The translations under genes were made by a program, and so were the position numbers. A DNA stretch of 32,582 nt from a virus: positions 1 through 32,582 of IMG/VR virus record IMGVR_UViG_3300042356_000664, one strand, 5' to 3'. Positions within the stretch are counted from its first letter, which is position 1; every line of letters starts with the position of its first letter. Positions 24,707 through 30,533 of this stretch are shown here, in pieces. The notes beneath the pieces are model-generated. The model made no database searches. It had not been told where the DNA came from and saw nothing but the letters and a program-made list of their open reading frames with translations.

Positions 24707-24741
24707 TGTCTGTGTGTCTGTGTGAGTGTGTGTGTGTCGGC

Positions 24742-24801
24742 TATTTTGTCATGACGTTATTCGGGGGGTATTGTTGGGGGGTAGTTATTTTGTCATGACG
24801 T
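24742..24801. promoter_or_regulatory. Two palindrome-centred sites 44 bp apart
   Basis: TATTTTGTCATGACGT occurs identically at 24742-24757 and 24786-24801. Each contains the 8-base palindrome GTCATGAC. The 44-base spacing is close to four helical turns, so both would face the same side of DNA. They lie 35-94 bases upstream of the candidate promoter and are probable regulator sites. Confidence 0.6.
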
Positions 24802-24908: not shown

Positions 24909-25088
24909 ATGTATCTATTGGCAAGTAGTTTTGATGAATATGTAAGTAAGCAAGGGGATATTTCCCGCAACGATTACGTAACGGTCATGGCATGGTTAAA
25001 TGATCTAAAAGCTACGGGACAGATATCCGATATCAAAGAATTGCAATACTTGACGGTGACGGATTTAGTCAAGCTTTTGTGTGACTAG
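24909..25088 (+). CDS. Small acidic hypothetical protein (59 aa)
   Basis: A 59-residue frame: MYLLASSFDEYVSKQGDISR then NDYVTVMAWLNDLKATGQIS and a helical end (YLTVTDLVKLLCD). A purine-rich site (GAGAGAGAGCTGAGAG) sits directly before the ATG, as for its neighbours. It is the first gene after the candidate promoter. No family is recognised. Base use (G/T-rich third positions) matches the downstream operon, which supports it as a real gene. Confidence 0.6.
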   Translation: MYLLASSFDEYVSKQGDISRNDYVTVMAWLNDLKATGQISDIKELQYLTVTDLVKLLCD

Positions 25089-25096
25089 TCGCCACG

Positions 25097-25161
25097 GCCT
25101 AGCCCGTTAGGGGTAGTCGGGTCATACCGGCACTAGGCACTACTCACCTATTCGGGGTGAG
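25097..25161 (+). ncRNA. Leader element 1 (tRNA-like three-way junction + hairpin)
   Basis: The closing helix is GCCTAG (25097-25102) with CTAGGC (25133-25138). Inside are hairpin CCC-GTTA-GGG (25103-25112) and hairpin GTCGG-GTCATA-CCGGC (25116-25131). ACTA follows the helix. A distal hairpin CTCACC-TATTCGG-GGTGAG (25143-25161) comes next, and then the purine-rich site before ATG 25180. One of five related elements (see 25373, 25970, 26803, 27537). Confidence 0.85.
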
Positions 25162-25179
25162 AGAATGAGAGATAGAGCG

Positions 25180-25365
25180 ATGAAGTGTTCAATTTGTGAA
25201 AGCCCGAATGTGGCGGTTATTGCCCATACGTTAGGTGATAACGGTATCGTCGATCATTTGTTATGCGCTAAGTGTGACGAATATTGCCGGCCTGATAGTT
25301 TCGTGGCTACCCCGCCGGCGTATGTTCGCCCCGACAGTAACGGGGCGTTTATTTCGTGGGATTAG
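25180..25365 (+). CDS. Small zinc-ribbon-like protein (61 aa)
   Basis: A 61-residue protein beginning MKCSICESPNVAVIAHTLGD. Cysteines form two pairs (CSIC at 3-6 and CAKC at 32-35, plus a third Cys nearby), as in a zinc ribbon. An in-frame ATG at 25165 lies within the purine-rich start-associated sequence, so ATG 25180 is preferred by comparison with sister genes. Preceded by leader element 1. Zinc ribbons of this size act as transcription modulators or host-protein binders in phages, but no specific role can be given. Confidence 0.65.
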   Translation: MKCSICESPNVAVIAHTLGDNGIVDHLLCAKCDEYCRPDSFVATPPAYVRPDSNGAFISWD

Positions 25366-25372
25366 TGTCAAG

Positions 25373-25436
25373 GCCTAGCCCGTAAGGGGTAGCCCGTCAT
25401 AGGGCGACTAGGCACTACTCGCCCAACCGTGGCGGG
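25373..25436 (+). ncRNA. Leader element 2
   Basis: Closing helix GCCTAG (25373-25378) with CTAGGC (25408-25413). Inner hairpins are CCC-GTAA-GGG (25379-25388) and GCCC-GTCATA-GGGC (25392-25405). ACTA follows. The distal hairpin CTCGCC-CAACCGT-GGCGGG (25418-25436) has compensatory changes relative to element 1. A GA-repeat purine tract then leads to ATG 25467. Confidence 0.85.
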
Positions 25437-25466
25437 TTCAATAGAGAGAGAGAGAGAGTTAGAGCT

Positions 25467-25829
25467 ATGAGAGCAAACTACGACCCCATAAATGGAGACT
25501 ATTCGTTAGGTGATTATTCCCTATCGCACGAGGCCACAGAACTAGTGCTATACGCACAGAACGATTACCGGAACTATAAGGCCTATATCGTGCCTATGTT
25601 GAAAGCGTGCCAAAAGCACTACGACAAGGGTCAAGGTGACTATGAGAGAGTCATAGCAGGGTTCACTAGAGTATTCTTGCCTATCGCCCGAAACTATGTT
25701 CTAGAACATTGCGGAATGACTGACAGTGTGCGGGGGATATTCCCGCCATCTGTCCGCCGTGAGTGTGGGCGACATATGGCGGAATATTTCCTAGCCGAAT
25801 ATCACGCTAACGGGGGCGGTTGGTCATGA
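25467..25829 (+). CDS. Conserved actinophage/plasmid-type protein (120 aa)
   Basis: A 120-residue mainly helical protein. The core, ATELVLYAQNDYRNYKAYIV followed by KHYDKGQGDYERVIAGFTRV, matches a domain common in actinobacterial phages and plasmids (T-x-E-L-x-L-Y-x-x-N-D ... Y-D-x-x-x-A) of unknown function. It is preceded by leader element 2 and a long GA-rich tract that supplies the ribosome site. It ends in an ATGA overlap with the next small gene. Confidence 0.7.
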   Translation: MRANYDPINGDYSLGDYSLSHEATELVLYAQNDYRNYKAYIVPMLKACQKHYDKGQGDYERVIAGFTRVFLPIARNYVLEHCGMTDSVRGIFPPSVRRECGRHMAEYFLAEYHANGGGWS

Positions 25830-25957
25830 GAGACCCCGAATGTAGTTTAGGGTTCGTTCATTGTGAACGGGTCACGGCATGGCCTGCGGGGTGGCAGATA
25901 GTAGCCGTTCTGGCGGGGGTAGTTGTTGCGGGTTGGTTGGTCTATCGTTCTCGATAG
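25826..25957 (+). CDS. Small single-span membrane protein (43 aa)
   Basis: A 43-residue frame starting at an ATGA overlap with the previous stop. The N-terminal part is MRDPECSLGFVHCERVTAWP. A hydrophobic segment WQIVAVLAGVVVAGWLVY follows, ending in a short basic tail (RSR). A Cys/His-containing head with one membrane span is predicted. Coupling supports it as a real gene. No family is recognised; small membrane proteins in early operons often target host processes. Confidence 0.6.
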   Translation: MRDPECSLGFVHCERVTAWPAGWQIVAVLAGVVVAGWLVYRSR

Positions 25958-25969
25958 CGTTCAATCCTG

Positions 25970-26037
25970 CCCTAGCCGTTTAGCGGTAGACCCGTCATAG
26001 GGTAACTAGGGACTATCGGGCGCAATCCTGCCCCGAT
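25970..26037 (+). ncRNA. Leader element 3 (variant closing helix)
   Basis: The closing helix is CCCTAG (25970-25975) with CTAGGG (26006-26011), a compensated change from GCCTAG/CTAGGC. Inner hairpins are CCG-TTTAG-CGG (25976-25986) and ACCC-GTCATA-GGGT (25990-26003). ACTA follows, then a distal hairpin ATCGGG ... CCCGAT (26015-26020 with 26032-26037) with an 11-nt loop. AGAGAATGGGAATAT leads to ATG 26058. Two CAATCCTGC repeat copies lie at its edges. Confidence 0.85.
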
Positions 26038-26057
26038 TATTTAGAGAATGGGAATAT

Positions 26058-26228
26058 ATGAGTGACGTTAGAAAAGTAACTAGCCAACTAATCGATCTAG
26101 TCGATGATGGCCTACTTACGTGGGAACAAATAGCTATGGAATGTTTATCGTATATGTCCGAATGTCAGGTGGCAGATATGGCATATTGTGGCTATTTGAT
26201 CAATGATGAGAGTGAGAGTGCCGAATGA
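26058..26228 (+). CDS. Small CLSYMS-motif protein (56 aa)
   Basis: A 56-residue acidic protein: MSDVRKVTSQLIDLVDDGLL, then TWEQIAMECLSYMSECQVAD. The L-x-W-E-x-I-x-x-x-C-L-S-Y-M segment recurs at the C-terminus of the gene at 26488. It is also a motif I recall from many small actinophage proteins. It is likely a helical pair that binds a partner protein. It is coupled to the next gene by ATGA and preceded by leader element 3. Confidence 0.65.
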   Translation: MSDVRKVTSQLIDLVDDGLLTWEQIAMECLSYMSECQVADMAYCGYLINDESESAE

Positions 26229-26491
26229 ATTACATTAGCCACGATATAGCCGTATGCGAAACATGTTATGTTTCCTATCATTACGGGGTTGACGGTATCG
26301 AATACCCGTTAGACACTACGACAGAACTAGCCCCGTTGGAACTCATACCGGCGGATTACGATATAACCGATATCTCATATTCGCCATTAGATGACGGGCA
26401 TAAAGTGTTTTCTAAATCCCCGTGTGACGGGTGCGGGTCATTGTTGGCAGGTAGCCGTTGGGCGTTAGTAGTTAGTGAGATCACGGTATGA
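26225..26491 (+). CDS. Cys-rich conserved actinophage protein (88 aa)
   Basis: An 88-residue protein with a CETC pair near residues 11-14 and a second group in FSKSPCDGCGSLLAGSRWAL. The S-P-C-D-G-C-G-S-x-L-A-G-x-R motif is strongly conserved in actinophage small proteins of unknown function, and the two pairs probably bind one zinc. It overlaps both neighbours by ATGA and is therefore in a tight three-gene unit (26058-26787). Confidence 0.7.
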   Translation: MNYISHDIAVCETCYVSYHYGVDGIEYPLDTTTELAPLELIPADYDITDISYSPLDDGHKVFSKSPCDGCGSLLAGSRWALVVSEITV

Positions 26492-26787
26492 ACGGGCGTA
26501 GGTATGTCGAATATTCTGACGGGGTGACTATGACGGTAGGCCACGAAACTATCGAGGTGGCCTATGTAACCGATAGCGGTTACCGTGTCCGTCAACGGTA
26601 TAGCGGGTATACCCGCCGACAGTGTGTAGCTATGTTTCGTGAATACTTGCGAACACTTGAGAAATGCCAACCAATCGACCAAACCGATAACGGCGTTCTA
26701 GATTGGGAAACTATTGTTAGAGCGTGTCTATCGTATATGCCAAAAAATAACGGGGCAGATATTGACACGGGTTCAACCCTGCCGTAG
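26488..26787 (+). CDS. Small protein with GYTRR and CLSYM motifs (99 aa)
   Basis: A 99-residue protein. The N-terminal part is a beta-rich unit followed by YSGYTRRQCVAMFREYLRTL. The Y-x-G-Y-T-R-R-x-x-x-A-x-F-R-x-Y motif is common to small actinophage proteins. The C-terminal part, NGVLDWETIVRACLSYMPKN, is the same type of helical motif as in the 56-aa gene two positions upstream. The protein thus looks like a fusion of two small phage modules. Function unknown. Confidence 0.65.
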   Translation: MNGRRYVEYSDGVTMTVGHETIEVAYVTDSGYRVRQRYSGYTRRQCVAMFREYLRTLEKCQPIDQTDNGVLDWETIVRACLSYMPKNNGADIDTGSTLP

Positions 26788-26802
26788 TTTTAGAGTTAGT
26801 TA

Positions 26803-26869
26803 GCCGTGGCCTATCGGGGGTACTTGCGGGTTCGATACCCGCCACGGCACTCTCACCAATTCCGGTGAG
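26803..26869 (+). ncRNA. Leader element 4 (canonical T arm, acceptor-like helix)
   Basis: The closing helix is GCCGTG (26803-26808) with CACGGC (26843-26848). A perfect T arm, GCGGG-TTCGATA-CCCGC (26826-26842), stacks on it without a gap. The other arm is reduced to CC-TATC-GG (26810-26817). ACTC follows the helix, then a distal hairpin CTCACC-AATTCC-GGTGAG (26852-26869). AATAGAGAATGGGATATAG precedes ATG 26895. All closing base pairs differ from elements 1 and 2 yet remain paired. Confidence 0.88.
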
Positions 26870-26894
26870 TAAATAGAGAATGGGATATAGCACT

Positions 26895-27527
26895 ATGACG
26901 GCAATAGATAATGTTCAAGGGTTCACTAGTAACCCTGACGGGGTAGGTAATAACTATCTCGCTAAGGTATTGGTGGCTAGCGGTAAGTTGGCTAGTCCTG
27001 ATATTTCACGTGGCACTATTTCTAGTGTCAAGGTTCAAGCGTTCGGGGATACCGTCACGTTCACGGGGTGCGATAGCTACCGGCTTATTGAGGTAACCGT
27101 GGATATGCCTAATGCCGGCGAATGGTTAGCCTTGCCGAACGGTAAAGAATTGGCTAAGGCTAGTTCTTTTGTTAAGGGTCAGGGTACGGCTACGTTTATT
27201 CTGGCCGATAATCAACTAGTTATTTCTAGCGGTAAGGGTAGCGTGAACGTTCAAGGGTTGAATGTTGATATCTACGGTATCTATCCGAATGTCGATCAAC
27301 TATTCGATTATGGAATTGACGGTAGCGGGTGGCCTGAGAGCACCGTGAACTATAACGGCGACCTATTGGGTGAGACACTTAGCCTTATCGCCGATATTGT
27401 CGATCATGGCGGTAAGGGTGCTACGGGTGGCCATGTCACTATTGAACGGTTAGTGCCACGTGCCATTATTACGGCAGAACGTGACGGTATCAAGGTACGG
27501 GCTACTCTCATGCCGTTGCGCAAGTAA
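26895..27527 (+). CDS. Short beta-clamp (DnaN)-like protein
   Basis: A 210-residue protein. An in-frame ATG at 26880 falls inside the start-associated purine sequence, so ATG 26895 is preferred. Features like those of bacterial sliding clamps are TFTGCDSYRLIEVTVDMP (residues 55-72; DnaN has T-D-S-x-R-L), YPNVDQLF (130-137; DnaN has F/Y-P-x-x-x-x-L) and the end VRATLMPLRK (201-210; DnaN ends x-x-P-M/V-R-L). The length is about 60 percent of a three-domain clamp, so it would have two domains, the size of trimeric clamps such as T4 gp45. It may be a processivity factor for the phage polymerase or a decoy for the host clamp. The similarity is motif-level only. Confidence 0.6.
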   Translation: MTAIDNVQGFTSNPDGVGNNYLAKVLVASGKLASPDISRGTISSVKVQAFGDTVTFTGCDSYRLIEVTVDMPNAGEWLALPNGKELAKASSFVKGQGTATFILADNQLVISSGKGSVNVQGLNVDIYGIYPNVDQLFDYGIDGSGWPESTVNYNGDLLGETLSLIADIVDHGGKGATGGHVTIERLVPRAIITAERDGIKVRATLMPLRK

Positions 27528-27536
27528 TCCGGTTAC

Positions 27537-27602
27537 GCCTAGCCCGTTGGGGGTTCTCTAGGTTCGATACCTAGCTAGGCACTACCGCTAATTCTGGCGG
27601 TA
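27537..27602 (+). ncRNA. Leader element 5 (canonical T arm)
   Basis: Closing helix GCCTAG (27537-27542) with CTAGGC (27575-27580). Hairpin CCC-GTTG-GGG (27543-27552). T arm CTAGG-TTCGATA-CCTAG (27558-27574) stacks directly on the closing helix. ACTA follows, then a distal hairpin TACCGC-TAATTCTG-GCGGTA (27583-27602, sharing the T of ACTA). GAATGGGAGATAGTT leads to ATG 27623. Confidence 0.88.
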
Positions 27603-27622
27603 ATAATGAATGGGAGATAGTT

Positions 27623-28045
27623 ATGAGATATTTAGTTCATAGGGGTACGGGTACTATTTTGGGGGTCAATGATGATCTAGTCATTGTTGATATCGACGAT
27701 AGTAATTTAGATATCGACGAGGCCGATATTCTTGAATTGGCAGATAAAGCTATTTCTAACTATAAGGCCGTTATCGGCACACTGTATGAATTGCCGTTAA
27801 TTCTTACTGATGAGGCTATTTCTAGCGAATTGAATGATTACGCTTATAATTGGTCAGAGTTCGAGATAGTTGAGGCAGACAATGACCCTTATGTTTACTG
27901 TCTCAATAATCCTGATACGTGGCCGTTAATCCGTGACGCTATTATCGAGGATAACGCTTTATGGAATGAGTACGCCGATACCTGGTCTAACGCTATTCAT
28001 ACGGTAGCTACCGATCATCGTTACCGTAATGAGGTGGCAGAATGA
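27623..28045 (+). CDS. Acidic hypothetical protein (140 aa)
   Basis: A 140-residue, strongly acidic protein (pI clearly low; Asp/Glu throughout). It begins MRYLVHRGTGTILGVNDDLV and has LDIDEADILELADKAISNYK in the middle. The N-terminal R-Y-x-V-H-x-x-T-G-T-I-L/I-x-x-x-D-x-x-x-x-V-D motif is reminiscent of small actinophage proteins, but no function is known. It is preceded by leader element 5 and overlaps the next gene by ATGA. An acidic, DNA-mimic-like character is possible. Confidence 0.6.
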   Translation: MRYLVHRGTGTILGVNDDLVIVDIDDSNLDIDEADILELADKAISNYKAVIGTLYELPLILTDEAISSELNDYAYNWSEFEIVEADNDPYVYCLNNPDTWPLIRDAIIEDNALWNEYADTWSNAIHTVATDHRYRNEVAE

Positions 28046-28287
28046 TTATCGAAATAAATAACCATAAAATTGGTGAGTACGATATCGACTATTCGGTCAC
28101 GTTCTGTTGCGAACATATGACTATTGTCGTAGGCGTTTACGTTCCGTCTACTAATGAGAACCCTGATGATGATGATGAGAATAGAGCTATTGAATTAGCC
28201 GACAGAATTATTCAGGACTATTACGGGTTCTCACCTATGTCGTTCTGCCACGAAACTATTGTCGATATTTGTGGGGTAGTCCGATGA
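28042..28287 (+). CDS. Acidic hypothetical protein (81 aa)
   Basis: An 81-residue protein starting MIIEINNHKIGEYDIDYSVT, with an acidic run (NENPDDDDENRAIELADRII) and four Cys, two of them adjacent (CC at 22-23). The second half is a helix plus FSPMSFCHETIVDICGVVR. ATGA overlaps link it to both neighbours. Not recognised. Confidence 0.6.
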   Translation: MIIEINNHKIGEYDIDYSVTFCCEHMTIVVGVYVPSTNENPDDDDENRAIELADRIIQDYYGFSPMSFCHETIVDICGVVR

Positions 28288-28511
28288 TATTTGCCGAACA
28301 TTTAGGTACAGCATGCCCCGTATGCGATGACATAATGACCGAACACTCTAACTATCGACCCGTATGGTCTGATGATTATGACAATATCGTATGCCAACAC
28401 TGTCTAGACACTACCCGTTGCCACGTTTGCCACGTCACGGGGGTAGGGGTTGAGAACAATATTTGTGATGAATGTTTTACCAATATGCCGATAGGAGTGT
28501 GGGTATCGTGA
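28284..28511 (+). CDS. Zinc-finger protein with four CxxC pairs (75 aa)
   Basis: A 75-residue protein. An upstream TTG is in frame, but ATG 28284 overlaps the previous stop (ATGA). Cysteine pairs CPVC, CQHC, CHVC and CDEC are spread along the chain, enough for two zinc ions in a treble-clef or rubredoxin-like arrangement. Such two-zinc mini-proteins bind proteins or nucleic acid. It is coupled to the next gene by GTGA. Confidence 0.7.
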   Translation: MIFAEHLGTACPVCDDIMTEHSNYRPVWSDDYDNIVCQHCLDTTRCHVCHVTGVGVENNICDECFTNMPIGVWVS

Positions 28512-29125
28512 GTAATTTTATTCAATGCCCTGTCGGTATCGACGCTAATGACCCGCATACTTTTATAGCGGGTCAGGGGCGTTTAGCGTTCTACGACATT
28601 ATGGGTCTATCCGGTCACTACCGTGAAATATGTCAAGAATGTAGCCACCCTATGAATGAACCCGTAGTAGACGGGGGACTAGAACTAGCCCCTGATCTAG
28701 CTATCTATTCGGTATGGGTTGGGGGTGGCGAGATCAACGATCACGCTCTAACGCCCCGTCAGGCTATCGACCTATCATATGAATGGATAGGTCAGGGTTA
28801 CGATGATGTGGCTATCGACCTATTTTATGGCGGTAGCGGTACGTTAGAACTACCGCCAGAATATAAGGTGGCTATCTTGAATTGGGCGACTAGTCAAGCT
28901 AACGCTCTCACTATGGCCGAATATGGGGGTGACTATTGGAATGTATGGGCTAGCCCGTGTCTCAAATACCGTTTAGATATCAACATTAGTAGCCACCGTG
29001 ACCCTGATGGCGATATTGCCCGTATATGCGCATACCAAACGTACACTGACACTGATGGATATGAGAATACCCGTCATGGTGGGTACGCCTATATTGGTAC
29101 TGTCGATATCTCTCATATGCGATAA
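28508..29125 (+). CDS. Hypothetical protein (205 aa), GTG start
   Basis: The frame is open from 28472, but GTG 28508 overlaps the upstream TGA (GTGA) and is preferred. The protein begins MSNFIQCPVGIDANDPHTFI and has a CQECSHPM cluster near residues 40-47. The middle is VWVGGGEINDHALTPRQAID then LSYEWIGQGYDDVAIDLFY, and the C-terminus is aromatic-rich. It is the largest protein of this sub-operon except the clamp-like one. I do not recognise it. Confidence 0.6.
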   Translation: MSNFIQCPVGIDANDPHTFIAGQGRLAFYDIMGLSGHYREICQECSHPMNEPVVDGGLELAPDLAIYSVWVGGGEINDHALTPRQAIDLSYEWIGQGYDDVAIDLFYGGSGTLELPPEYKVAILNWATSQANALTMAEYGGDYWNVWASPCLKYRLDINISSHRDPDGDIARICAYQTYTDTDGYENTRHGGYAYIGTVDISHMR

Positions 29126-29133
29126 CCCCCAAT

Positions 29134-29421
29134 ATGAGAGAACGCCTACATCGTTGGGCGATCTGTCGGCCTATTCTTGGCATATTTGTCAAGGGTAGGC
29201 CGATAGTTTTACGCCCACCTAACTATCACGTAGTACGGCACACTAGGTTCAATATTTATTGGCGTGACCCGTACAATTTACGAACTAATGCCACCGGCCA
29301 TTTATCCGAATGGGGCAAACTAGGTCACGCTTGGCGGTTCAGTACGGTAGAACTAGCCACGGGGGTACTATCTGAGATGAATGAGAACGGCATAATCGAG
29401 AGCTATCCGTATGATGACTAA
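29134..29421 (+). CDS. Hypothetical basic protein (95 aa)
   Basis: A 95-residue protein: MRERLHRWAICRPILGIFVK followed by a basic, aromatic middle (YHVVRHTRFNIYWRDPYN) and an acidic C-terminus (VLSEMNENGIIESYPYDD). It begins eight bases after the previous stop, without a leader element. It is the last gene before the convergent terminator. No family is recognised. Confidence 0.55.
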   Translation: MRERLHRWAICRPILGIFVKGRPIVLRPPNYHVVRHTRFNIYWRDPYNLRTNATGHLSEWGKLGHAWRFSTVELATGVLSEMNENGIIESYPYDD

Positions 29422-29448: not shown

Positions 29449-29480
29449 AATAGGTCACGGGCTAACCCCCGTGGCCTATT
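29449..29480. terminator. Strong stem-loop at the convergent operon junction
   Basis: AATAGGTCACGGG (29449-29461) and CCCGTGGCCTATT (29468-29480) form a 13-bp stem with one T-G wobble and a CTAACC loop. Plus-strand sequence after it is moderately T-rich (TGCTATTTGG). It lies between the end of the plus operon (29421) and the end of the minus operon (29595), so it may terminate in both directions. Confidence 0.7.
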
Positions 29481-29553: not shown

Positions 29554-29595
29554 AGTTGCGCTCAATCCTGCCCCAACAGTTGCGCTCAATCCTGC
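29554..29595. repeat. Tandem copies of an 18-bp repeat, period 24
   Basis: AGTTGCGCTCAATCCTGC occurs at 29554-29571 and identically at 29578-29595, separated by CCCAAC. A 16-base version (GTTGCGCTCAATCCTG) lies at 29767-29782 inside the WhiB-like gene. Shorter relatives are at 25956-25970 (AGCGTTCAATCCTGC) and 26020-26034 (GCGCAATCCTGCCCC). Confidence 0.85.
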
Positions 29596-29924
29596 TAACG
29601 ACTATACCGTGGGTCACGTTCGATAGGTTTACGTTGCGCTGAACGAAGGATTACACGTTGCGATGGGAGTACCCCGCCATATACGCCGGCGTTGTCTTGG
29701 TCTTGGGGGAATGATAGTGCGTAATCGAGGCATTGTAGCCGTACTGGACACCCTGGTGTTCCTGTGGTTGCGCTCAATCCTGTCTTTGGATCAACGATTT
29801 CGGTGAGTGTGCCGTTGCAGAAGGTTACGGCTTGACGTTGGGTGTGTATGTCGCCGTTCTCGGCAAAGAATAGGCGTGTGTCTGTACCTTTGCATAGTGC
29901 TTGTTGTAACCATTCTTCGTTCAT
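29595..29924 (-). CDS. WhiB-like protein with an extended Cys spacer
   Basis: A 109-residue WhiB-like iron-sulphur protein. The start ATG 29924 overlaps the upstream TGA (ATGA). Four cysteines are present: C11 (ALCKGTD), C36 (TFCNGTL), C59 and C65 (PGCPVRLQCLDYAL), plus the turn GVYGG at 80-84 and a basic C-terminus (RSAQRKPIERDPRYSR). In canonical WhiB proteins the middle two cysteines are separated by two residues. Here C36 and C59 are separated by 22, and the added part (residues 37-58) contains the codons of the repeat at 29767-29782. Such proteins regulate transcription with the primary sigma factor through a 4Fe-4S cluster. Whether this one still binds a cluster is open. Confidence 0.8.
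   Translation of the reverse strand: MNEEWLQQALCKGTDTRLFFAENGDIHTQRQAVTFCNGTLTEIVDPKTGLSATTGTPGCPVRLQCLDYALSFPQDQDNAGVYGGVLPSQRVILRSAQRKPIERDPRYSR
29767..29782. repeat. Intragenic copy of the GCGCTCAATCCTG repeat
   Basis: GTTGCGCTCAATCCTG matches the tandem repeats at 29554-29595. It encodes part of the segment TGLSATTG within the extended cysteine spacer of the WhiB-like protein. Confidence 0.8.
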
Positions 29925-30187
29925 AGTTCTATGGGCATAACAATTATTGGGGTTCGTTTGCCGACCCATGCACCGAGGCAGTTGTAGTCTATGTATTCGA
30001 CTGCTTCGTCGTAGTCCATTTGGTCACGCTCAATGAGGGTGTCTATCATTTTTTGGTATGAGTAGATGGCTATTTCTGGTTCGTTGATTCGTTGTGAGTA
30101 GCCGAGGAACGCTTCGTCGAATCCATCCATGAGTAGGACTCTCATGCTGTTGTCTTTGAAGTATTGGTCGATCTGTTCTCGGTTCAT
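29921..30187 (-). CDS. Conserved actinophage small protein (88 aa)
   Basis: An 88-residue protein. An ATG at 30202 is in frame, but it lies before the ribosome site AGGAAA of ATG 30187, which also overlaps the upstream TGA (ATGA). The core, DEAFLGYSQRINEPEIAIYS, then MDYDEAVEYIDYNCLGAWVG and KRTPIIV, is a well-conserved actinophage domain (x-E-A-x-V-E-Y-x-x-x-N-x-x-G-A-W-V-G-x-x-T-P) of unknown role. It is coupled to the WhiB-like gene downstream. Confidence 0.8.
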   Translation of the reverse strand: MNREQIDQYFKDNSMRVLLMDGFDEAFLGYSQRINEPEIAIYSYQKMIDTLIERDQMDYDEAVEYIDYNCLGAWVGKRTPIIVMPIEL

Positions 30188-30261
30188 TTTCCTGCCCTCC
30201 AAAGAGCTACTAGTAAAGCGAAACTATGAATGATGATAAGTGCTGTCAAGAATATGTCCAT
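30184..30261 (-). CDS. 25-residue membrane peptide
   Basis: A 25-residue frame between the two adjacent genes. The ATG at 30261 overlaps the TGA of the WhiB gene upstream (TGATG), and its TGA overlaps the ATG of the next gene (ATGA). It encodes MDIFLTALIIIHSFALLVAL followed by WRAGK, a single hydrophobic helix with a basic C-terminal end. Coupling on both sides is the main evidence. It might be a holin-like or regulatory peptide, but nothing specific shows this. Confidence 0.6.
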   Translation of the reverse strand: MDIFLTALIIIHSFALLVALWRAGK

Positions 30262-30533
30262 CAGAATAGTTCTTCCTCTACAACTTTGACATTCATTTCT
30301 TTGAGAAGTATCCGGCGTTTCTTTTGTGTGAGACCACCCCAAACACCCTGTAACCGTGAATGTTGAGCAAGTTTTAGGCTGTACTCTCGGCACTGTTCTA
30401 TTACCGGACATGTAGCGCACGTAGCTAATGCTTTTTGGCGTAGTTCGTAATCTAATTTTTCACCGAAGAACATGTCGGTCATGCCTTTGCATGCTGCATC
30501 AGCGAACCATGAAGGTGTTTTTTCTGCGATCAT
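30261..30533 (-). CDS. WhiB-family transcription regulator
   Basis: A 90-residue canonical WhiB. It has SWFADAACKGM (C15), CATCPVIEQC (C39, C42, C48 in the C-x2-C-x5-C arrangement), the turn GVWGG at 63-67 and a basic tail (KKRRILLKEMNVK). These bind a 4Fe-4S cluster and the sigma factor region 4 in actinobacteria. Phage copies typically redirect host transcription or block superinfection. It starts at ATG 30533 after an AGAGAGAGACAAAT stretch and lies downstream of a lysis-type gene. WhiB proteins are confined to Actinobacteria and their phages, so it also marks the host phylum. Confidence 0.93.
   Translation of the reverse strand: MIAEKTPSWFADAACKGMTDMFFGEKLDYELRQKALATCATCPVIEQCREYSLKLAQHSRLQGVWGGLTQKKRRILLKEMNVKVVEEELF

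Follow-up and report, generated by a model that had tools for sequence, protein, structure and literature searches.

Virus record IMGVR_UViG_3300042356_000664, 32.6 kb in size and analysed here over all of its 32,582 nucleotides (the window), contains a rightward operon of small, early-type genes, mostly of unassigned function, that is punctuated by five copies of a structured RNA element with a tRNA-like fold (Table 1). Each copy was found at the position assigned to it by an earlier sequence-only reading of this DNA, and the rule of placement put forward there also holds, in that operon gaps of 91-107 nt contain an element and ATGA overlaps contain none. The copies do lie shortly before start codons, as that reading described, but the distance of 19-31 bases that it gave shifts with the start codon assumed, which for the second gene may be 25165 or 25180. 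The element represents a new structured RNA family with strong statistical support, and the place that it occupies between genes is taken in other phages by hammerhead ribozymes.

Fold and classes of the element

The element is a compact three-way junction with a core of about 40-50 nt, in which an acceptor-like helix of 6 bp meets two hairpins, one D-like and the other T-like. The first acceptor strand is followed immediately by the D-like hairpin, and then by a short joiner, the T-like hairpin and the second acceptor strand. Beyond the acceptor lie an RCNR linker (ACTA or ACTC in the window), a distal hairpin that ends 20-25 nt upstream of the next start codon, the ribosome site and the ATG. 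The D-hairpin is minimal, with 3-4 bp, an anticodon arm is absent from every copy, and the conserved unpaired bases gather at the junction, the T-loop and the RC linker. The minimum-energy structure of each isolated window core is the fold described. When the distal hairpin is included, four copies reach z-scores of -3.1 to -3.6 and the copy at 25970 only -0.75, while for the copy at 25373 an alternative fold is lower in energy (-31.9 vs about -25.9 kcal/mol).

Three classes are distinguished by the T-arm. Class I bears a 6-nt loop, GTC[A/G]TA, and includes the window copies at 25097, 25373 and 25970. Class II displays classical tRNA T-arms of the form GG-TTCRANN-CC (26803, 27537 and most copies in locus L004), and it is the only class in which a TTCRANN T-loop is closed by a G53-C61 pair; the 6-nt loops of classes I and III ([T/G]TCR..) lack a fixed closing pair. 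Class III, the commonest, has a 4-bp T-stem and the loop TTC[A/G]AT, and dominates in phages of 75-97 kb (L041, L171, L173 and L175) that are distinct from the window's group and whose SNF2 helicase is nearest to those of Arthrobacter phages. In one copy in L010, read by eye, the acceptor is 7 bp and the T-arm 5 bp long and the D-arm carries GG in its loop; this copy is, to judge from its letters, a tRNA minus the anticodon arm. In some long gaps of the 75-97-kb phages and their relatives, pairs of very strong hairpins replace the tRNA-like element (Table 1).

Table 1. Coordinates of the elements and of other features in the window (plain numbers) and in other viral loci (numbers preceded by L).
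Feature	Coordinates	Strand	Remarks
Element 1	25097..25165	+	Core 25097-25138, ACTA, distal hairpin; class I, loop GTCATA
Element 2	25373..25436	+	Core 25373-25413, ACTA, distal hairpin; class I, loop GTCATA
Element 3	25970..26036	+	Core 25970-26011, ACTA, distal hairpin; class I, loop GTCATA
Element 4	26803..26872	+	Core 26803-26848, ACTC, distal hairpin; class II, classical T-arm GCGGG-TTCGATA-CCCGC
Element 5	27537..27603	+	Core 27537-27580, ACTA, distal hairpin; class II, T-arm CTAGG-TTCGATA-CCTAG
Operon of small genes	24909..29421	+	Rightward; punctuated by elements, ATGA overlaps without element
Sliding-clamp-like gene	26880..27527	+	PHROG DNA polymerase processivity factor; elements 4 and 5 on either side
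Open reading frame with WhiB match	30261-30533	-	
Open reading frame with WhiB match	29595-29969	-	
Terminator-like hairpin	29449-29480		Strong; directly past last operon gene
Repeat AGTTGCGCTCAATCCTGC	29554-29571, 29578-29595, 29766-29783		Past the operon; also at 25953-25970
TATTTTGTCATGACGT-like word	24734-24797		Twice, ~44 nt apart; upstream of first operon gene
Type II hammerheads in element-carrying operons	L008:2275-2324, L009:1944-1993, L028, L029, L032, L034, L048		Below threshold in Rfam or missed by it
Type I hammerhead-like sequences	L152:861-918, L152:1090-1145		Two, ~230 nt apart; contig fetched by an unrelated pattern
Strong hairpin pairs	L041:4094-4208, L041:6997-7122	-	For example CCTCACAGCACAT..ATGTGTTGTGAGG
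Strong hairpin pair	L174:3187-3306		Long intergenic gap

Distribution

Pattern scans of viral contigs, together with a structural descriptor, recovered 147 elements with 84 distinct cores from 67 viral contigs, a contig count that includes near-identical contigs. Recurrence of the element in at least two unrelated phage groups is supported, and a locus related through the clamp gene (L004, 86% identity) carries at least 7 copies. The descriptor alone found 133 elements in real DNA and 3 in an equal amount of dinucleotide-shuffled DNA, and this excess, along with the massive covariation among relatives, excludes a chance origin. One search pattern, GCCGT..ACGGCACTA, was discarded as too loose, since the contigs that it returned were mostly unrelated. 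No credible match to cultured phages was obtained by blastn with four element queries and one hammerhead, short queries of this kind being insensitive to structure, and two pattern scans of sequenced bacteria, covering 84,980 species, gave no match.

Covariation and differences between copies

Across 79 distinct aligned copies, 98.6% of cells are paired, and changes on both sides of a pair number 432, compared to a mean of 134 after shuffling and at most 65 for slid structures. The alignment used (A4) leans toward the structure, as it was made by aligning unmodified sequences to the model used for finding elements (R1), itself seeded from an alignment (A2) in which a few rows had shortened distal loops. 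Under a tree-aware null, self-written in the manner of R-scape, 14 of the 20 pairs are significant, two more never vary and are thus uninformative, and no significant column pair lies outside the structure. A pseudoknot was rejected as well, with no covarying column pair found beyond the helices. The covarying helices proposed from the window alone are therefore borne out, and a covariation test of the kind proposed with them yields a signal above phylogenetic expectation.

Selection acts on the RNA, as indicated by an excess of G-U pairs (about 42 cells vs about 21 with other non-Watson-Crick combinations in the 79-copy alignment) and by an orientation that follows the genes in 68 of 68 loci. 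The copies within a locus, moreover, are never identical: none of 140 pairs share a core, and among class III copies a T-stem is common to none of 55 pairs, where 10.4 would be expected for randomly dealt stems (P<1/5000). Acceptor stems are shared within a locus more often than expected, and D-stems are neutral in this respect. This absence of identical copies and common T-stems argues against recent amplification, and so the 'mobile or amplified' unit of the sequence-only reading is not upheld, while its tRNA-like cis-RNA that separates the genes of an operon stands. The T-stem lies in mid-element, so that differing stems break up long repeats, and distinct T-stems may prevent recombination or cross-folding between copies.

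These data also bear on a feature of the DNA itself, be it a repeat for recombination or gene shuffling, an internal promoter or terminator, or the remains of a tRNA gene. Elements that are repeated, palindromic, intergenic and present in unrelated phages might suggest as much, but the G-U excess, the constant orientation and the avoidance of a common T-stem all speak against it, and ARAGORN reports no tRNA. Promoter-like matches occur in the operon no more often than chance predicts, and the terminator-like matches there (5 vs 3.1 expected) include just one of the five element hairpins, the distal hairpin of the copy at 25970, the pattern being absent at the other four elements. An origin of this kind is exceedingly improbable.

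The intergenic slot and its exchange with hammerhead ribozymes

The position of the element between genes is nearly invariant. Of 115 elements, 114 have a stop codon upstream, at a median of 7 nt, and 114 have a start codon downstream, at a median of 46 nt from the core. Hammerhead ribozymes occupy the same slot, with the start codon 24 nt downstream (about 20-26). A weak Rfam hit to Hammerhead_II in L008 (22.5 bits, below threshold), considered as a candidate for the element itself and rejected, proved to be a real type II hammerhead that lies beside elements, between genes of the same operon. With a descriptor, hammerheads were found in seven loci that carry elements and in none of 1.6 Mb of shuffled sequence. 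A scan aimed at hammerheads yielded 62 loci, often with 2-5 hammerheads each, which mostly overlap or abut the upstream stop codon. Arrays of 2-5 type II hammerheads, one per intergenic gap, are seen in L184, L189, L198, L200, L218 and about 20 other loci, and most of these array loci show no tRNA-like element. Two descriptor hits in L152 resemble type I hammerheads and are unrelated to these (Table 1).

Both devices are present in 15 loci, on one strand and in nearby gaps of the same operon. In three families of homologous downstream genes, a hammerhead leads the gene in one phage and a tRNA-like element leads it in another. The devices thus differ ahead of a gene whose product carries the motif MI[D/E]E..NF.ADIL (L028 vs L034, 70% identity over the first 60 residues) and ahead of an MTRK gene (L011 vs L032, 39% identity). 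In related phages, the hammerheads of neighbouring slots do bear the core CUGANGA / GAAA / UH; the descriptor found no hammerhead with this core and three stems in the window. Perreault et al. (2011; PMC3088659) proposed that the clustered hammerheads of phages divide long transcripts into mRNAs of operon or gene length, and demonstrated cutting both in vitro and in E. coli. The exchange between the two devices suggests a function in RNA cleavage and not in translation initiation, and the simplest reading, by analogy, is that the new element would do the job of the hammerhead in the same slot.

The exchange also weighs against a regulatory RNA, either a translational operator or a riboswitch-like leader, to which a protein of the host or the phage (for example, one that binds tRNA) would attach and which would co-regulate the genes behind it. 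Such leaders are known to mimic tRNA in translational operators, and the genes downstream of the elements are small, of early type and mostly of unknown function. A regulator, however, would not be expected to trade places with a ribozyme, nor to precede nearly every separate gene of an operon with no functional subset among them, and this explanation is considered very unlikely.

Resemblance to tRNA

The T-loop motif [T/G]TCR is present in 77 of the 78 slot hits judged to be real, the other 12 of 90 appearing spurious, and the C of the RCNR linker is invariant except in misregistered or spurious hits. Position 75 is never C (0/111 elements), such that CCA is not encoded; base frequencies at the third linker base are biased, as the descriptor gave this base a small bonus and the search patterns favoured ACTA, though this bias would not alone exclude C among the other types at that position. 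The base at -1 is never U (0/111). C, otherwise by far the commonest base at -1, never occurs there with G73 (0/8), compared to 72 of 103 elements with A73 (P=1.4e-4). Base -1 therefore never pairs with position 73, and the end of the acceptor helix is fixed exactly. The absence of an encoded CCA is a requirement for substrates of tRNase Z, and CCA is missing from many actinobacterial tRNA genes as well.

The resemblance does not extend to a whole tRNA or transfer-messenger RNA (tmRNA). ARAGORN detected no tRNA and no tmRNA in the window and 26 loci, no Rfam tRNA hit was obtained, the anticodon arm is missing, and, where a tmRNA combines a tRNA-like domain with a tag reading frame, the element is only about 40-50 nt long; genes for tRNA or tmRNA, or their remnants, were rejected accordingly. 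The fixed helix end, the lack of CCA and the layout of acceptor and T-arm are indirect signs that the element may be a substrate of tRNase Z or RNase P.

These details are not readily accommodated by a rigid, uncut insulator or stabilizer that would block exonucleases or ribosome read-through and coupling, and so allow genes to be translated and to decay separately. This explanation would suit the placement between stop and start codons, the lack of elements at overlapping genes, the presence of a hairpin near the ribosome site, as in a 5'-untranslated region, and the greater folding stability of four of the five window copies relative to shuffles. A plain hairpin would suffice for this purpose, however, leaving the conserved T-loop, the RC linker and the failure of -1 to pair with 73 unexplained, and the hammerheads with which the element trades places are known for cutting. 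An uncut insulator is thus judged unlikely.

Proposed processing mechanism

The reading favoured here, which stands at roughly even odds, is that of an intercistronic mRNA-processing element, a tRNA mimic that would be cut by tRNase Z and/or RNase P of the host. These enzymes are proposed on the grounds that the fold corresponds to the acceptor and T-arm part of a tRNA, without CCA and otherwise stripped. The element begins about 7 nt past the stop codon, and its fold would be a mimic that keeps what tRNA-maturation enzymes read, namely an acceptor helix stacked on a T-arm, along with a small D-hairpin and no anticodon arm. Cleavage would fall where the acceptor helix ends. This would give an upstream mRNA that finishes in a stable fold and a downstream mRNA that opens with 2-4 unpaired bases followed by the distal hairpin. 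A 5' hairpin is a classic stabilizer of mRNA. One long early transcript would in this manner become a set of mRNAs for single genes or short blocks of genes. In related phages, a type II hammerhead would do the same in the same slot by cutting itself, with the downstream message beginning at the stem I hairpin, and with either device the upstream product would have a structured 3' end and the downstream product a hairpin cap at its 5' end.

Several points weigh against cleavage by tRNA enzymes. Class III elements, the commonest type, combine a 4-bp T-stem and a 6-nt loop with a bulged base before the acceptor, and so form an imperfect 12-bp minihelix of acceptor and T-stem. Hammerheads cut themselves, such that their exchange with the element would fit a self-cutting element equally well, and their role in mRNA maturation in vivo is itself a proposal. 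The element might then be a new self-cleaving ribozyme, with the junction, RCNR linker and distal hairpin as its catalytic core. The slot shared with hammerheads, the exchange before homologous genes and the clustering of conserved unpaired bases at the junction, T-loop and RC linker are in keeping with this explanation, but it is hard to reconcile with the absence of a pseudoknot or other tertiary covariation, with differences in junction lengths and loops between classes that exceed the usual variation of a catalytic core, and with class II T-arms that resemble those of ordinary tRNAs. A ribozyme of this sort appears distinctly unlikely. Leaving the agent of cleavage aside, it is somewhat more probable than not that several lineages of environmental phages use dedicated, interchangeable RNA-cutting cassettes between genes, comprised of hammerheads and of a new tRNA-like family that either hijacks tRNA enzymes or cleaves itself, with a T-stem of its own in each copy.

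Operon context and host

Two open reading frames of the window match WhiB (Table 1), a transcription factor of actinobacteria and their phages, and the capsid and terminase proteins are distant relatives of Streptomyces phage proteins. An actinobacterial host is thus likely for the window phage, as suggested by these protein similarities, and several of the environmental phages that carry elements probably infect actinobacteria, although all of the contigs are metagenomic with inferred hosts and the WhiB evidence comes from the window only. The strong terminator-like hairpin that follows the last operon gene is consistent with one long operon transcript. Words resembling the repeat AGTTGCGCTCAATCCTGC also occur in L004, in L181 and in the distal hairpin of element 3. 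The TATTTTGTCATGACGT-like words ahead of the first gene are possibly operator sites of the operon promoter.

Relation to known systems and significance

The sequence-only reading had recognized no described family, and this remains so for Rfam 15, which gave no match at the gathering level in the window and only unrelated weak hits at E<=10 in the operon, L033 and L008, and for the open-access literature, a description in a subscription journal being one that could be missed. Rfam, run on 64 kb per search, also missed hammerheads that the descriptor found, making its silence on other ribozymes weak evidence. The nearest analogy offered from the window alone, the start-associated sequences (SAS) of cluster K mycobacteriophages, does not hold. 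The SAS is a conserved 13-bp repeat at the ribosome site, and the extended SAS (ESAS) is a simple 17-bp inverted repeat (PMC3203893). These repeats likewise lie ahead of start codons, in the half of actinophage genomes devoted to non-structural genes, and the ESAS contains an inverted repeat, but the present elements are three-way junctions in which structure is conserved and sequence is variable. The 13-bp SAS (GGGATAGGAGCCC) is absent from the window, where 3 matches at 3 mismatches compare to 4.8 expected by chance, none near the elements.

Type II hammerheads (RF02276; PMC3088659) share far more with the elements, including the slot, the strand, the occurrence of several per operon, the hairpin and ribosome site that follow, and even the operons and homologous genes concerned, but the elements contain neither the CUGANGA, GAAA and UH core nor the hammerhead arrangement of stems. 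The theta ribozymes of gut phages (PMC10879173) are also small phage RNA devices tied to tRNAs and the formation of RNA ends; these are self-cutting, resemble the ribozyme of hepatitis delta virus and trim real tRNAs, and they differ from the elements in fold and context. An acceptor helix and a T-arm with its T-loop are placed between genes in tRNA punctuation too, in which tRNAs are excised from polycistronic transcripts, as happens in animal mitochondria. The tRNA-like domain of tmRNA, for its part, has no anticodon arm either, and its maturation relies on tRNA enzymes. The elements differ from both in having no anticodon, no encoded CCA and a D-hairpin of only 3-4 bp, and in not being a mature tRNA or tmRNA themselves. 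The RNA family is new, while the job proposed for it has known analogues in hammerheads and tRNA punctuation.

Only rarely can a job be guessed for an orphan RNA, as it would be here, since a known ribozyme takes the same slot. Punctuation by tRNAs is best known from mitochondria, and if the element is cut by tRNA enzymes, phages would use the same principle to produce single-gene mRNAs in bacteria; if it cuts itself, it would represent a new class of ribozyme. Either way, the question of why phages keep hammerheads between their genes becomes directly testable.

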